From Wenzhouxiangella sp. (GTDB taxonomy: Bacteria; Pseudomonadota; Gammaproteobacteria; Xanthomonadales; Wenzhouxiangellaceae): 32,216 nucleotides of DNA. The stretch is from the NCBI GenBank assembly GCA_007118895.1, contig SKQS01000116.1, positions 1-32,216 on the forward strand, given 5' to 3'. A program made the translations under genes and the position numbers. A model generated the notes under the pieces. That model saw nothing but the letters and a program-made list of their open reading frames with translations. It made no database searches and had not been told where the DNA came from. The stretch's first letter is position 1, and each line of letters begins with the position of its first letter. Below are positions 1 through 30,584 of the stretch, in pieces.

Positions 1-17
1 GAAGCAACGCCTGTGGC

Positions 18-133
18 GTCTGCCGCCCGGCAGACGACTGCGGGCCTTCAGGCCCGGTATCAAACAAAGCGGGTTCGACTCCCGCCTGCTTTGCTGGGCC
101 CGGAAACGACAAAACCGGCACAAAGGCCGGTTT
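18..133 (+). ncRNA. Candidate structured RNA with T-arm, plus-strand copy
   Basis: In order this stretch can form a 7-bp hairpin (18-35, loop GCCC), a 6-bp hairpin (41-56, loop TTCA), a 12-nt A-rich linker (57-68), a perfect T-arm (69-85) and a terminator hairpin (112-133). The loop TTCGACT closed by a G-C pair fits the tRNA/tmRNA T-loop consensus. After the T-arm comes CTGCTTTG, which pairs at six of seven positions with GAAGCAA at 1-7. However, no CCA is encoded and there is no room for a D-arm, so it is not a normal tRNA. It also lacks the GGAC that I recall before the tmRNA T-arm. It may begin left of the window. Function unknown. It could instead be a tRNA/tmRNA-derived remnant such as an integration scar. 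Confidence 0.35.
112..133. terminator. Bidirectional terminator-like hairpin
   Basis: A perfect 8-bp stem (112-119 with 126-133) closes a 6-nt loop. On the minus strand the stem is followed by a T-rich stretch (TTTTGTCGTTT). On the plus strand only the three T of the stem itself follow. It sits exactly at the symmetry centre of the two T-arm elements, so it could end both convergent transcripts. Confidence 0.55.
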
Positions 134-230
134 CGTGCCTTCTGGGCAAAACAAAACTCGCGGGAGTCGAACCCGCTTCCTTCCATCCATCGGCTGACGC
201 CGATCCATTCGCTTGCCGCGAACAAGCAAG
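112..230 (-). ncRNA. Candidate structured RNA with T-arm, minus-strand copy
   Basis: Read on the minus strand, this repeats the layout of the plus copy: a hairpin near 230-211, a 6-bp hairpin at 204-189 (loop GTCA), a 12-nt A/G-rich linker (188-177), the identical 17-nt T-arm (176-160) and the shared terminator (133-112). Compared with the plus copy, four of the six pairs in the second hairpin differ on both sides yet still pair, which is what selection on RNA structure would give. As in the other copy, there is no CCA end. Its upstream part reaches towards the esterase gene start at 290. Function unknown. Confidence 0.35.
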
Positions 231-289
231 ATTTGAATCAATTGATGCGCATCCGTTACCCTGAAACCAGATTTTGTATTGGGATAACA

Positions 290-1660
290 ATGCAGGCTCC
301 AGGTTTCCGCCACGCACTTTCCGCCCTCCTAGTGCTGATCGCCAACCTGGCGCATGCCGACAGCCCCGCCGCCGCACTGGCACCTGGCTGGCACGATGAT
401 CTTTCGATACAGGTGGGCGAAGATACTCGCTACTTTCGTTATTTCATTCCATCCAACCTGCTTGATCCCGCACCGCCTGTCGTGCTGTTCTTTCATGGCG
501 GCACCCAGAGCATGCGCTCGACCATGCCGCCGAGCTCACAGGGCAGTGCGGCCTGGCCTTTTGTTGCCGAAGCAGAAGGTTTCGTGCTGATTGTTCCGAA
601 CGGCATGGGCGACGACCAGGACGCCTTCGGTGACGATCAACGCTGGAATGACTGCAGGAGCGACGGCGTGCAGGTCAGCCAGGCTGATGATGTGGCTTTC
701 GTGGAAGCGCTGCTGGACTGGTCGCTGGATAACCTCGGACATGATCCCGACGCGGTCTTTGCAACCGGCAACTCAAATGGCGGCATGATGACTTTTCGGC
801 TGGCCCAGGAGCGGCCCGACCTGATCACCGCAGGCGCCAGCTTCATCGCCAATCTGCCGGCCAACAGCCAGTGTGAAGAACAGGACGAACCGGTCCCGAT
901 GATGATTGCCAATGGCACCCTGGACACCTGGTCGCCATACGGGGGTGGTCAATTGATCTTCGGCAATGGCGAGGTGCTTTCTACCGACGCCACCGTGGAT
1001 TACTGGCTGGAGATCAACGGTATTCAGGGCACTCCTGTAGTCAAGACCCTGCTGCAGCTGGAACCGGATGAACCGTCGCAGATCGAGCTGCTTCGCTTTC
1101 CGGGCGATCAATCCGTCGACACGGTACGCTTTTACAGGATGATTGATGCCGGGCACACCATGCCGACTCTTTCACGCCCGATCAGTGCACTTGCCGAATC
1201 GGTAGTTGGTCCTCAGAACCGGGATATCGAAGGCGCAGCGGCAACCTGGGATTTCTTTCGCCAGTTCTATCTGACCGATGCCGATCGCCGGCACGCGCTG
1301 TCCGGACACTGGTATGACCCGACTCGCTCCGGAGAAGGCTACAACTTCATGGCCGGACAGGCCGGCGCCAGCCTGTTCTATTACGGGGCCGACCCTGAGG
1401 GTGAGCGCCTGTGGCTGGTCAGCGACCTGATCACCCACTCAGTCATCTTCGACCAGGATTACATCGTGACCCTGTACCGGACAGTCGGCGGCCAGTTGGG
1501 GCAGCCGGTTCCGCCACCGGACGGCATACTTGAATGGGGGCAGGCCACCATACGCTTTCATGACTGCGCTCACGCTGACTTCGTGCTGGAAGGCGAAGAT
1601 GGGGAACTGCTGGAAAGCGAGGTGGTGCGGCTGCTGGAGATCTCCAACACCCGCTGCTGA
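290..1660 (+). CDS. Secreted PHB-depolymerase/LpqC-like esterase with C-terminal GHWYDP module
   Basis: Exported serine hydrolase of the PHB depolymerase/LpqC/feruloyl esterase family, about 456 aa, probably cutting ester bonds of polymeric or aryl esters outside the cytoplasm. Residues 1-23 form a signal peptide ending in AHA before DSP. The oxyanion region is FFHGG (67-71), and the nucleophile is Ser162 in GNSNGG. A likely Asp lies in NGTLDTW and the His in DAGHTMP. The last roughly 120 residues form a separate module beginning SGHWYDPTRSGEGY, of the kind seen appended to secreted proteins in Xanthomonadales-like bacteria; its role is unknown. The ATG at 290 is chosen because it starts the signal peptide and has GGGA upstream. 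An in-frame TTG at 233 would add 19 unlikely residues. The substrate cannot be read from sequence. Confidence 0.85.
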   Translation: MQAPGFRHALSALLVLIANLAHADSPAAALAPGWHDDLSIQVGEDTRYFRYFIPSNLLDPAPPVVLFFHGGTQSMRSTMPPSSQGSAAWPFVAEAEGFVLIVPNGMGDDQDAFGDDQRWNDCRSDGVQVSQADDVAFVEALLDWSLDNLGHDPDAVFATGNSNGGMMTFRLAQERPDLITAGASFIANLPANSQCEEQDEPVPMMIANGTLDTWSPYGGGQLIFGNGEVLSTDATVDYWLEINGIQGTPVVKTLLQLEPDEPSQIELLRFPGDQSVDTVRFYRMIDAGHTMPTLSRPISALAESVVGPQNRDIEGAAATWDFFRQFYLTDADRRHALSGHWYDPTRSGEGYNFMAGQAGASLFYYGADPEGERLWLVSDLITHSVIFDQDYIVTLYRTVGGQLGQPVPPPDGILEWGQATIRFHDCAHADFVLEGEDGELLESEVVRLLEISNTRC

Positions 1661-4780: not shown

Positions 4781-5547
4781 CGCCAGGTCTTGCGTCGTCG
4801 CCAGCGCCGCCGGCCGCGGCTGGATTCGCTGGTCCGGCCCAGATAGAACTCGCGAATGTCTTCGGAAGCCATCAGTCGTTCGGCCGGACCATCCATCACG
4901 ATGCGCCCGATTTCCAACACGTAACCATGATCGGCCACCTCCAGCGCGGCGCGCGCGTTCTGCTCTACCAGCACGATGGTCAGGCCCTGTTCCTGGTTCA
5001 GGCGACGAATGATGGTGAAGATTTCCGAAACCAGTACCGGCGACAGGCCCAGCGAGGGCTCATCGAGCAGCATCAGCGCCGGGCGGGCCATCAATCCGCG
5101 GGCAATGGCCAGCATCTGCTGCTCACCGCCCGACAGGGTGCCGGCCTCCTGCCTGCGTCGCTCGGCCAGAATCGGAAAGTACTCATTGACCAGCTCGAGC
5201 TCGGCCGCCCACCCGGATCGGTCGCGCCGGGCATAGGCGCCCATGCGCAGGTTTTCGGCCACGCTCATGAACGGGAAAATCTCCCTGCCCTCAGGCACAT
5301 GGACGATACCTTCGCGTACCAGCCGGTCCGGCTCCATGCCGTCTATGCGCTTGCTGCGATAGCGTACGCTGCCCTTGCGTGGGGCCAGGGCGCCCGACAG
5401 GGTGCGCATCAGCGTGGTCTTGCCGGCGCCATTGCCGCCCAGCACGGTGACGATGCTGCCCTCCGGCACGCTCAATGACACCCCGCGCAGGGCCATCACC
5501 GGTCCGTAGCTGGTTTCCAGGTTGTGCACGGTCAGCAGGGGATTCAT
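4777..5547 (-). CDS. livF: ABC transporter ATPase, LivF type
   Basis: Cytoplasmic ATPase subunit of a branched-chain-type (HAAT family) importer, 256 aa. It has Walker A GGNGAGKTT (37-45), the signature LSGGEQQ (138-144) and Walker B LMLLDEP (158-164), followed by an H-loop region replaced by VEQNA, as is usual for LivF. The C-terminus is an unusually Arg-rich tail (GRRRWRRRKTWR), not part of the ATPase core. It overlaps the livG stop by 4 bp (ATGA) and the ligase start by 4 bp, so translation is probably coupled. The livF name denotes family membership; the transported substrate need not be leucine, isoleucine or valine. Confidence 0.9.
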   Translation of the reverse strand: MNPLLTVHNLETSYGPVMALRGVSLSVPEGSIVTVLGGNGAGKTTLMRTLSGALAPRKGSVRYRSKRIDGMEPDRLVREGIVHVPEGREIFPFMSVAENLRMGAYARRDRSGWAAELELVNEYFPILAERRRQEAGTLSGGEQQMLAIARGLMARPALMLLDEPSLGLSPVLVSEIFTIIRRLNQEQGLTIVLVEQNARAALEVADHGYVLEIGRIVMDGPAERLMASEDIREFYLGRTSESSRGRRRWRRRKTWR

Positions 5548-27568: not shown

Positions 27569-28606
27569 TCAGCGCTGCGAGTCGAGGCCGGACACGCCAA
27601 CCCCGATCAGCCGGATGGCAAAGCCCTGGCGATAGCTGGCCCAGCGTTCGAGCAACGTGCTGGCAACTCCGGCAATTTCCTCCGCATCCGTCGTGAAATC
27701 CCGCAGCGACTCGCTGCGGGTGATGGTTGAAAACCCGCTGGATCTCAGTTTCAGCGTAACCACCCGGGCATGCAGCCCCCTCACCCTGAGCTTGCTTGCT
27801 ACCGATGCCGCCTGTTCGGCAATCACCGGCAGCAAGGTGTCGAGGTGGTGATGGTCCTTGTCGAAGGTCGTTTCCTGACTGATCGACCGACGTGTCCTGA
27901 CCGGGTTGACCGGGCGATCATCTTCGCCGGCAGCCAGCCGCAGCAGCGTCAATCCGTGGTCACCGAACAACTCTTGCATCAGCTCAGGTGATGCGAGGCG
28001 AAGCTGACCGATGGTCAGAATACCCGCGTCCTTCAGTCGTTCCGCGGAGCGCTTGCCAACCCCCGGAAGCCGCCGAACCGGCAGGGGATCCAGAAAACGT
28101 CGCTCCTGCCCGCGAGGAATGTGTACCAGGCCGTCGGGCTTGTCGTAGTCCGATGCCAGCTTGGCCAGCAGCTTGTTGTGCGCCATGCCGACCGATGCCG
28201 TCAGGCCGGTCTCGGCCGCAATCACCCGCTTGATCTCGCGCCCGGTCTCGACAAGCTCAGCACCCCCCTCCACGTTATCGCTCAGGTCGATGTAGGCCTC
28301 ATCCAGGCTCAGGCCCTCGACCCGGTCGCTGTAGCGATGGAAAATCTCGAACACGCGAGCCGAGACTTCCCTGTATCTCGCAAAACGCGGCTTGACAAAG
28401 ACTGCATCAGGGCACTTGCGGCGTGCAACTGACGCCGGCATGGCAGAGCGCACCCCATGCTGGCGGGCCTCGTAGCTGGCCGCCGCAACCACCCCGCGAG
28501 ACCCGTCGCCGCCAACCACAACCGGCCGGGCGCGTAACTGCGGATGGTCAGTCTGCTCGACGCTTGCATAGAAGGCATCCATGTCGACATGAATGATTGC
28601 TCGCAT
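27569..28606 (-). CDS. dinB: DNA polymerase IV (Y-family)
   Basis: A translesion DNA polymerase of about 345 aa. The N-terminus MRAIIHVDMDAFYASVEQ carries metal-binding Asp8 and the steric-gate Tyr13. Asp102 and Glu103 lie in GLSLDEAYID. The helix-hairpin-helix stretch LPGVGKRSAERL and the little-finger domain follow. The ATG at 28606 is chosen because it matches the N-terminus of other DinB proteins. An ATG at 28615 adds three residues. I see no clear LexA box in the 86-bp upstream gap, so SOS control is not shown. Confidence 0.94.
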   Translation of the reverse strand: MRAIIHVDMDAFYASVEQTDHPQLRARPVVVGGDGSRGVVAAASYEARQHGVRSAMPASVARRKCPDAVFVKPRFARYREVSARVFEIFHRYSDRVEGLSLDEAYIDLSDNVEGGAELVETGREIKRVIAAETGLTASVGMAHNKLLAKLASDYDKPDGLVHIPRGQERRFLDPLPVRRLPGVGKRSAERLKDAGILTIGQLRLASPELMQELFGDHGLTLLRLAAGEDDRPVNPVRTRRSISQETTFDKDHHHLDTLLPVIAEQAASVASKLRVRGLHARVVTLKLRSSGFSTITRSESLRDFTTDAEEIAGVASTLLERWASYRQGFAIRLIGVGVSGLDSQR

Positions 28607-28677
28607 AAGCGTCATTATCCAAGCTGTCCGGTGCGTGGCGATGAAGATACCGCTCCGGCGCAAAGCTGCCAAACTGC

Positions 28678-28683
28678 TACAAT
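28678..28683 (+). promoter_or_regulatory. -10 box close to the FHA-GGDEF start codon
   Basis: TACAAT ends 9 bases before the GTG at 28693, so transcription would start at about 28690 and leave a leader of about three bases. The spacing resembles that at xseA. No good -35 box is seen. Confidence 0.35.
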
Positions 28684-28692
28684 TTCCGAGAC

Positions 28693-29589
28693 GTGACCGA
28701 TCCTGCCAACAAGCACACCCCAACCGACTCGCAAACCGCCTTCGTGGGACGGCGCGAGGAAATCGGGGGCAACCACGAGGCCTGCCTGGTGGTGATTCGC
28801 GGTGCCCGCCTGGGCTCCAGGATCGTGCTGGGGCAGCAGGCCATTGTCATCGGGCGCAGTGTCGAGGCCGATTTCCAGATCTCCGACCGCAGCATCTCCA
28901 GGCGCCACTGCCGGATTGTCCGCCAGGACAACGATTTCTGGATCGAGGATCTCGGCTCGACCAACAAGACCTACGTCAACAATGAGTCTATCGAACGCCA
29001 CCTGCTGAGTGATGGAGATCACGTGCAGCTCAGCCAGACCGTGCTCAAGTTCATTGATGAGGGCAACATCGAAGCTGGTTATCACTCGGAACTGCATGAG
29101 ACCACCATACGCGATCCGCTGACCGGACTGTACAATCGGCGTCATCTCATGGCGGTGCTGGAGACCGAGCTGGCCAAGGCGATTCGCAACCCCGATCGCC
29201 CCCTTTCTCTGATCATCATGGACATCGATTTCTTCAAGGAAATCAATGATAACGATGGACACGTCGCCGGCGACGCCATACTCGGCCAACTGGCCCGGGT
29301 ACTTGCGGATCGTGTCCGGGACACCGACACCCTTGCACGGATCGGCGGTGAGGAGTTTGCGATCATCCTGCCCGATACCGATCGCAGCCAGGCAGTCGTT
29401 CTGGCCGAGGAAATCTGCAATCGGGTTGCCGCGCGGCGTTACCCGATCGAGGATGGTGAGCGCTCGGTCACCCTGTCGGCTGGAGTGGCCCAGTGGCATC
29501 CGGACATGGCCGACCTGTCAGGCCTGTTGCGGGCCACCGATGAGCGCCTTTACCAGGCCAAGGAACAGGGTCGAAATCAGGTCTGCTGA
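28693..29589 (+). CDS. FHA-domain diguanylate cyclase (GGDEF)
   Basis: A soluble cyclase of 298 aa that makes c-di-GMP from GTP. An FHA domain (about 31-123) has the phosphothreonine-binding set IGRS, SRRH and GSTNKTYVNN. The GGDEF domain (about 135-296) has an active GGEEF (218-222) and the product-inhibition site RDTD (209-212), five residues upstream. There is no membrane segment, so the input is probably a phosphorylated partner protein rather than a periplasmic signal. The start is a GTG at 28693 with a weak ribosome-binding site. No Ser/Thr kinase gene lies in the window. The 3' end overlaps the convergent cysteine-synthase-like gene by 13 bp. Confidence 0.92.
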   Translation: MTDPANKHTPTDSQTAFVGRREEIGGNHEACLVVIRGARLGSRIVLGQQAIVIGRSVEADFQISDRSISRRHCRIVRQDNDFWIEDLGSTNKTYVNNESIERHLLSDGDHVQLSQTVLKFIDEGNIEAGYHSELHETTIRDPLTGLYNRRHLMAVLETELAKAIRNPDRPLSLIIMDIDFFKEINDNDGHVAGDAILGQLARVLADRVRDTDTLARIGGEEFAIILPDTDRSQAVVLAEEICNRVAARRYPIEDGERSVTLSAGVAQWHPDMADLSGLLRATDERLYQAKEQGRNQVC

Positions 29590-30584
29590 TTGGCAAGCCA
29601 CGGCGGCAGCGGCAAGTCCCTGGATTCGAGAAACTCCCGGTTGAACAGTTTGGACTCATAGCGGCTGGCCGAGTCGCACAGGATGGTGACGATGGTATGG
29701 CCGGGGCCCATGTCTCTGGCCAGGCGAATCGCACCGGCCACGTTGATGCCGCTGGAAGCGCCAAGGTACAGGCCCTCGCGCCCGATCAGATCCCACAGCA
29801 CCGGAACCAGCTCGCGGTCGGGGATGTTGTAGGCCTCGTCGATGCGCGCCCCGTCCAGGTTACCGGTAACGCGGTTCTGGCCAATTCCCTCGGTGATCGA
29901 ACTCCCCGAGGACTGCATTTCACCGTGCTTGACCCAGTGGTAAACGCCGGCACCGTCGGGGTCGGCCGCTCCAATCACGATCCCCGGACGCTGCTCTTTC
30001 AGCCATAGCGACAGCCCGGCCAGGGTGCCACCGGTACCCACCGCGCAGATGAAGCCGTCGATCCGCCCATCGAGCTGTGACCAGATCTCCGGCGCCGTCG
30101 AACGCATGTGACCGGTGCGATTGGACAGGTTGTCCCACTGGTTGGCGTAGAACACGCCGTGATCACTTTCCAGCGACTCGGCCAGGCGACGGGCCTGGTG
30201 GACGTAATTGTCGGGGTTGCGATAAGGCACTGCGGGCACGGTGATCAGTCGGGCGCCCATGCCGCGCAGCGCCGACTGCTTTTCGGACGACTGGGTATCG
30301 GGCATCACAATGATGGTCTCAAGACCCAGCGAGTTGCCGGCTAGCGTCAGGCCGATGCCGGTGTTGCCGGCCGTGCCCTCGACCACGATCCCGCCAGGCT
30401 CGATCGACTTGTCGCCAAGCGCATCGAGCAGCAGGTACTTGGCCGCACGGTCCTTGACCGACCCGCCGGGGTTCATGAATTCGCATTTTCCGTAGATCTC
30501 GCAACCGGTCAGCTCCGAGGCGTGCGCCAGTCGGATCAGCGGCGTATTGCCGACCGCATCGAGAAACCGCTTCGGTTCGTTCAC
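29577..30584 (-). CDS. PLP-dependent cysteine synthase/cysteine-metabolism enzyme (CysK-like)
   Basis: A fold type II PLP enzyme of 335 aa. The Schiff-base lysine is Lys44 in NPGGSVKDRAA. The substrate loop is TAGNTG (71-76), the phosphate cup GTGGT (183-187), and the ring-nitrogen Ser lies in CDSASRY. It could make cysteine from O-acetylserine with sulfide or thiosulfate, or run as a cysteine desulfhydrase. The motif spacing, with EGTAGNTGIG in place of the usual EPTSGNTG, places it in a side branch of the CysK family. The start is GTG at 30584 with AAGGA seven bases upstream. It diverges from the rhodanese and YeeE/YedE genes, which suggests a sulfur role. Confidence 0.85.
   Translation of the reverse strand: MNEPKRFLDAVGNTPLIRLAHASELTGCEIYGKCEFMNPGGSVKDRAAKYLLLDALGDKSIEPGGIVVEGTAGNTGIGLTLAGNSLGLETIIVMPDTQSSEKQSALRGMGARLITVPAVPYRNPDNYVHQARRLAESLESDHGVFYANQWDNLSNRTGHMRSTAPEIWSQLDGRIDGFICAVGTGGTLAGLSLWLKEQRPGIVIGAADPDGAGVYHWVKHGEMQSSGSSITEGIGQNRVTGNLDGARIDEAYNIPDRELVPVLWDLIGREGLYLGASSGINVAGAIRLARDMGPGHTIVTILCDSASRYESKLFNREFLESRDLPLPPWLANQQT

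Follow-up and report, generated by a model that had tools for sequence, protein, structure and literature searches.

Two tail-to-tail palindromic units carrying tmRNA T-arm copies in Wenzhouxiangella: probable mini-elements of tmRNA and tRNA gene 3' ends

The window analysed here is the whole stretch of 32,216 nucleotides that begins contig SKQS01000116.1 of Wenzhouxiangella sp. (assembly GCA_007118895.1). It opens with two copies of one structured unit arranged tail-to-tail (1-248), followed by a gene for a PHB-depolymerase/esterase-like hydrolase; further along, three ordinary genes, for DNA polymerase IV, an FHA-GGDEF protein and cysteine synthase A, stand in a row at 27569-30584. A repeat search found an ungapped mirror symmetry centred on 122.5, with arms of 72 nt (48-119 and 126-197) that are 72% complementary, and this symmetry is the best in the window (52/72 complementary positions vs 40/72 for the next-best elsewhere). 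A full-length unit is about 180-200 bp long and, on its own strand, runs through hairpins hp4, hp3, hp2 and hp1, a linker and a T-arm, ending at the terminator of the tmRNA gene, ssrA. The features are as follows.

1..16, plus strand: 3' part of hp3 of the plus unit (GAAGCAACGCC...), read in the sequence; the full hp3 is seen in relatives (alignment A4)
18..35, plus strand: hp2 of the plus unit, GTCTGCC-GCCC-GGCAGAC, from sequence and folding; covarying helix 2
41..56, plus strand: hp1 of the plus unit, CGGGCC-TTCA-GGCCCG, from sequence and folding; covarying helix 3
57..68, plus strand: linker of the plus unit, 12 nt, GTATCAAACAAA, from sequence; its ATCAAA is partly conserved in alignments A1-A4
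69..86, plus strand: inverted ssrA T-arm copy of the plus unit, GCGGGTTCGACTCCCGCC, matching an 18-mer of the family's ssrA T-arms
112..133, no strand assigned: central terminator-like hairpin, AAACCGGC-ACAAAG-GCCGGTTT, also called on the minus strand at 139-117
160..176, minus strand: second T-arm copy, GCGGGTTCGACTCCCGC, with a single change at the 18th base, from sequence and T-arm comparison
177..188, minus strand: linker of the minus unit, 12 nt, GGATGGAAGGAA, from sequence
189..204, minus strand: hp1 of the minus unit, ATCGGC-GTCA-GCCGAT, from sequence, folding and model alignment
208..229, minus strand: hp2 of the minus unit, TTGCTTG..CAAGCGAA, from sequence, folding and alignment
159..248, minus strand: entire minus unit according to covariance model R1 (38.8 bits), a copy outside the training set
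290..1660, plus strand: neighbouring PHB-depolymerase/esterase-like hydrolase gene, from gene annotation; flank, outside the element

An earlier note on this DNA had described the gapless symmetry, a perfect T-arm in both halves, linkers of equal length, compensatory changes in hp1 and a shared central terminator, and these observations were borne out. The T-arms read GCGGG-TTCGACT-CCCGC at 69-85 (plus strand) and 160-176 (minus strand), both linkers measure 12 nt, and 4/6 pairs of hp1 are changed on both sides between the copies with pairing kept, around loops TTCA and GTCA. The terminator stood as a terminator-like hairpin, whose sequence type is that of the ssrA terminator of relatives. The extent that had been given, 18-227, holds for the core but not for the limits, the minus unit reaching 248 and the plus unit beginning at the contig end. 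The contig (G000:C83) stops at base 1 of the window, so that the plus unit is cut within hp3, in the hairpin loop, and R1 aligns to this hp3 from position 8. Folding gave z = -3.8 for 18-145 on the plus strand and z = -2.4 for 230-105 on the minus strand.

Homologous loci, which the note had proposed to collect, are present in the Wenzhouxiangellaceae. Searching the DNA of 60 relatives gave matches to the plus half in several genomes of the family, and ARAGORN identified ssrA adjoining many of the matches, a layout confirmed by direct reading: the unit lies directly downstream of ssrA, inverted and hence tail-to-tail with it, with one terminator common to both. Covariance model R1, built from five units of the plus type, was run on 43 genomes of the family and 200 of the order. 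Matches with E < 1e-4 came from ssrA sites in G027, G029, G021, G004, G009, G036 and G034 and otherwise from the window only, while weaker matches at ssrA in G003, G008 and G062 have the same layout as the strong ones. Every other weak match inspected in family and order was a tRNA, ssrA itself or coding DNA. Homologous units were seen in one family. The minus copy of the window scored its 38.8 bits (E 1.7e-6) without being in the model and, being found independently, establishes that both halves are genuine members of one family. The segment hp1-hp2-T-arm was found solely beside ssrA or in the window. Units largely track host relatedness, and many sister genomes with ssrA carry none. Phage and plasmid collections contained no match to the unit, viral contigs contained none to the hp4-ssrA junction and one chance match to hp4, and a gapped T-arm plus hp4 pattern, which was too strict, found none. 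Searches of the literature turned up ssrA islands and REP repeats, and nothing that matches the hp1-hp4/T-arm unit.

For the window itself the link to ssrA is drawn from homology, since its assembly yielded no tmRNA over the cut-off; nor were hp4 and a displaced ssrA end found there, the far end of the unit lying beyond the contig. Pairing of unit with unit, instead of unit with ssrA, occurs in the window only in this sample. Most relatives are represented by draft genomes and several of their contigs end inside units; contig ends G000:C83, G021:C100, G021:C101, G027:C180 and G036:C14 fall inside units or the ssrA tail. For the window's livK-like gene, the orthologues in G021, G027 and G029 are not on the contigs that carry the ssrA units and are uninformative on synteny.

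Conservation along the unit is uneven. Identity between units is 92% in the T-arm, 67% in hp1, 54% in the linker and 49% in hp3 and hp2, and the T-arm shows no double change among units. Outside genus g4 the T-arm of a unit differs from the ssrA T-arm at one position at most, and the 18-mer of the window's plus unit is identical to that of 25/25 ssrA T-arms checked in the family; from this we conclude that the T-arm of the units is the ssrA T-arm copied in inverted orientation.

At its far end the unit abuts, through hp4, a displaced ssrA 3' end, the junction falling between CGCAACGCC and CCGCCGCCTCCACCA; relatives read AACGCC directly before CCGCCGCCTCCACCA, with the variant AAGGCC in G004. 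Exact repeats of the ssrA end measure 68, 26, 17, 59 and 14 bp in G034, G009, G008, G003 and G004 respectively, at spacings of 182-199 bp, or 355 bp in G003, where there is an insertion inside, and in this set the displaced end often brings the terminator along. In G008 the terminator adjacent to ssrA is new or different and the displaced terminator matches that of G003, as would follow if the terminator had arrived with the unit. At the far boundary the 3' end of the target gene recurs as a displaced direct repeat, both at ssrA, in these five genomes, and at tRNA-Ser. The tRNA-Ser cases come from two related genomes, where the displaced 3' end adjoins a hairpin of the hp4 type, with an exact repeat of 43 bp at 269 bp spacing in G070 (L183) and a 12-bp repeat at 66 bp spacing in G067 (L184). 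When 84,980 species were scanned for the hp4 pattern, it turned up in other Gammaproteobacteria, along with chance matches within genes of unrelated bacteria, and the covariation of hp4 in 12 sequences from these contexts is 0.309 vs 0.089.

True islands at ssrA offer a reference for this boundary. In G012 and G016 their far end reads TAG directly before CCGCCGCCTCCACCA, one base off the point where the exact repeat starts, and directly behind ssrA G012 and G007 encode tyrosine integrases that combine Arm-DNA-bind_3 and Phage_integrase domains; in the units themselves no integrase was seen. What look like empty and filled sites beside the same kind of neighbouring gene were found in G031/G025 vs G027 and in G064 vs G034, a comparison between species rather than strains and judged by similarity of the neighbouring genes. 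At L056 in G003 (about 5237-5428) a MITE-like insertion with terminal inverted repeats TAGGAGCCTGTCGGA...TCCGACAGGCTCCTA sits between terminator and T-arm copy and splits the ssrA-proximal unit, and at L055 in G032 an inverted-repeat insertion of another kind (CTGATGAGGTCGTTCATCAG...CTGATGAATGACCTCA) sits immediately after ssrA and before the terminator, with a decayed T-arm copy following.

The explanation that we consider probable is a family of palindromic mini-elements at the 3' ends of tmRNA and tRNA genes, placed there by integrase-type recombination, with two tail-to-tail copies in the window. Two features favour insertion of this type: the junction agrees with the one seen in true islands, and it is found at both tmRNA and tRNA genes. 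The earlier note had listed, among its possible meanings, remnants that integration events left of tRNA or tmRNA, and also a mobile palindromic element; the inverted copy of the ssrA T-arm and the position of units behind ssrA between duplicated ssrA 3' ends in relatives support both, which prove to be one and the same thing. The parts are read directly in these genomes, and from them we infer a mechanism in which units would enter at the RNA gene 3' end by site-specific recombination of the circle type, run by an integrase encoded elsewhere, and would then multiply in tandem and decay. The hairpins and the T-arm copy would act as DNA, either as sites for recombination or protein binding or as a folded single strand, and template switching in the hairpins may help to preserve perfect stems and a perfect T-arm copy. 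As for the window genome, its neighbouring ssrA would have been lost at an assembly gap, or the pair would have moved away from it; these repeats may be the reason for the loss of ssrA from drafts, that of the window included.

The main rival is tandem instability of palindromic repeats, which may also be at work alongside insertion. In its full form it holds that the units are an old, vertically inherited hairpin array of the REP/BIME kind, shaped by tandem duplication, template switching and gene conversion without a site-specific recombinase, and we consider this unlikely, if still the nearest competitor. It draws on the behaviour of hp3-hp4, which in genus g4 is a dispersed intergenic palindrome with 12 matches in G003 and 22 in G008 (at most 3 mismatches), compared with 0-1 copies elsewhere in the family. 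In G003 and G008 these copies are embedded in dRS3-like palindromes and are often tandem, at 145-185 bp spacing and away from RNA genes, so that the duplications could stem from repeat instability; since units follow host relatedness, old vertical inheritance with tandem duplication is also conceivable. At L108 (3749-3959) a palindrome-bearing 43-nt direct repeat, its copies 168 bp apart, encloses hairpins of the hp3-hp4 type with no nearby tRNA gene detected, and an inverted T-arm copy with perfect stems is what template switching in hairpins would homogenise. An array of this kind would, however, leave three observations aside: the junction and the displaced end of ssrA islands are no more than one base apart, displaced tRNA-Ser ends too are adjoined by hairpins of the hp4 type, and hp1-hp2-T-arm keeps solely to ssrA and the window. 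The intergenic dRS3-like arrays of G003 and G008 (L215-L225) carry tandem hp3-hp4 hairpins, with three 145-bp repeats in L218 as an example.

The note had also offered two paralogous small RNAs that mimic a T-arm. Taken further, this reading has a structured small RNA, tail-to-tail with tmRNA, recruit T-arm-binding proteins through its T-arm, with the two copies in the window as paralogues, and we think it quite improbable. It would account for the strong covariation of hp1-hp3, the near-frozen T-arm and the folding scores of both strands. Across the 16 sequences of A4, which were aligned to the model and so give figures that lean towards its structure, 94.4% of cells are paired, double changes occur in 16/24 pairs (52 cells) and the covariation score is 0.341 vs 0.118 in shuffles and at most 0.095 with the partner slid. 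The stems do covary among relatives, but the use of covariation as a mark of a selected RNA fails: dispersed DNA palindromes from related genomes covary likewise, so covariation does not tell RNA from DNA palindromes. Template switching is an established mechanism that corrects palindromes in DNA and yields double changes. T-loop residues C56 and A58 are needed for the tRNA fold; they are changed in G027 and G029, and genus g4 has one extra base there. With T-loop residues not strictly kept and covariation undiscriminating, an RNA that mimics a T-arm is not supported. Against it stand also the lack of any promoter-like site within 1-420, the share of G-U pairs (about 5% of cells in A4), the loss of conservation 5' of hp1 in several copies (G036b, G004b and the minus copy of the window) and the absence of the unit from many ssrA-bearing sister genomes.

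That the tail-to-tail pair is an assembly artefact is very unlikely: it does start at base 1 of a contig in a draft genome, and contigs of several relatives end in such units, but the two units are not the same in sequence, on the 160-320 side the DNA continues into an intact gene, and the plus unit and terminator match relatives unbroken. A divergent tRNA (tRNA-Sec-like, anticodon TCA) or a tmRNA gene or pseudogene, for which an Rfam tRNA-Sec alignment over 5-93 with loop TTCA (RF01852; 20.9 bits, E 0.08) and a T-arm-only tmRNA match at 160-176 could be cited, is refuted for practical purposes by a score far under the gathering score of 47, a supposed anticodon loop that varies in relatives (TTGT, GTCA, GGAA, GCA), the lack of CCA and acceptor, a negative ARAGORN result and the lack of any Rfam match at gathering thresholds. 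The tag frame and full tRNA-like domain of tmRNA (RF00023) were not found, and a tRNA-like closing acceptor stem, checked by eye, is not conserved in relatives.

Should the mini-elements be mobile, they would rank with the smallest known integrative elements of the site-specific kind, without genes, and would tie palindromic intergenic repeats to integration at tRNA and tmRNA genes. They also counsel caution, since strong covariation of stems near a T-arm can arise from DNA palindromes and need not signal a new RNA gene. Furthermore, units seem to break assemblies at ssrA, and tmRNA can then appear absent in draft genomes.

Among known systems, tmRNA and tRNA share with the unit an 18-mer identical to the ssrA T-arm; the unit differs in having no acceptor stem, CCA, D-arm or tag, and in relatives it is reversed relative to ssrA. 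With integron attC cassettes it has in common a covarying hairpin right before the junction and new units that seem to enter beside a fixed site; the consensus RYYYAAC/GTTRRRY was not seen by eye, and the likeness is one of analogy only. By that analogy one might picture a cassette-like system, in which gene-free mini-elements would recombine into tmRNA and tRNA-Ser 3' ends through a folded, attC-like hp4, the RNA gene end serving as the fixed entry and the inverted T-arm as a second recombinase site, a proposal that we hold to be distinctly doubtful. REP and CGTC palindromes occur in tandem with flanking DNA (PMC3733652), and the REP/BIME and CGTC (dRS3-like) repeats resemble the units as short perfect intergenic palindromes, grouped or in tandem with flanking segments (PMC3733652, PMC2817692). 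In the units, direct reading found no GTAG/CGTC tetranucleotide at the ends of hp1-hp4, CGTC being seen only in the surrounding dRS3-like repeats of G003 and G008, and hp1-hp2-T-arm differs from REP/BIME in being locus-specific, low-copy and accompanied by duplicated RNA gene ends. Islands in tRNA and tmRNA genes are collected in the Islander database (PMC4383910), and those at ssrA in Dehalococcoides (vcr-GI) are stacked, some of them without an integration module (PMC3146451). Like ssrA islands, the unit has the ssrA 3' end as target, a far boundary marked by direct repetition of that end, and tandem stacking; it differs in being only about 180-200 bp long and gene-free, and in carrying covarying hairpins in a chain together with the T-arm of its own target, copied in inverted orientation.
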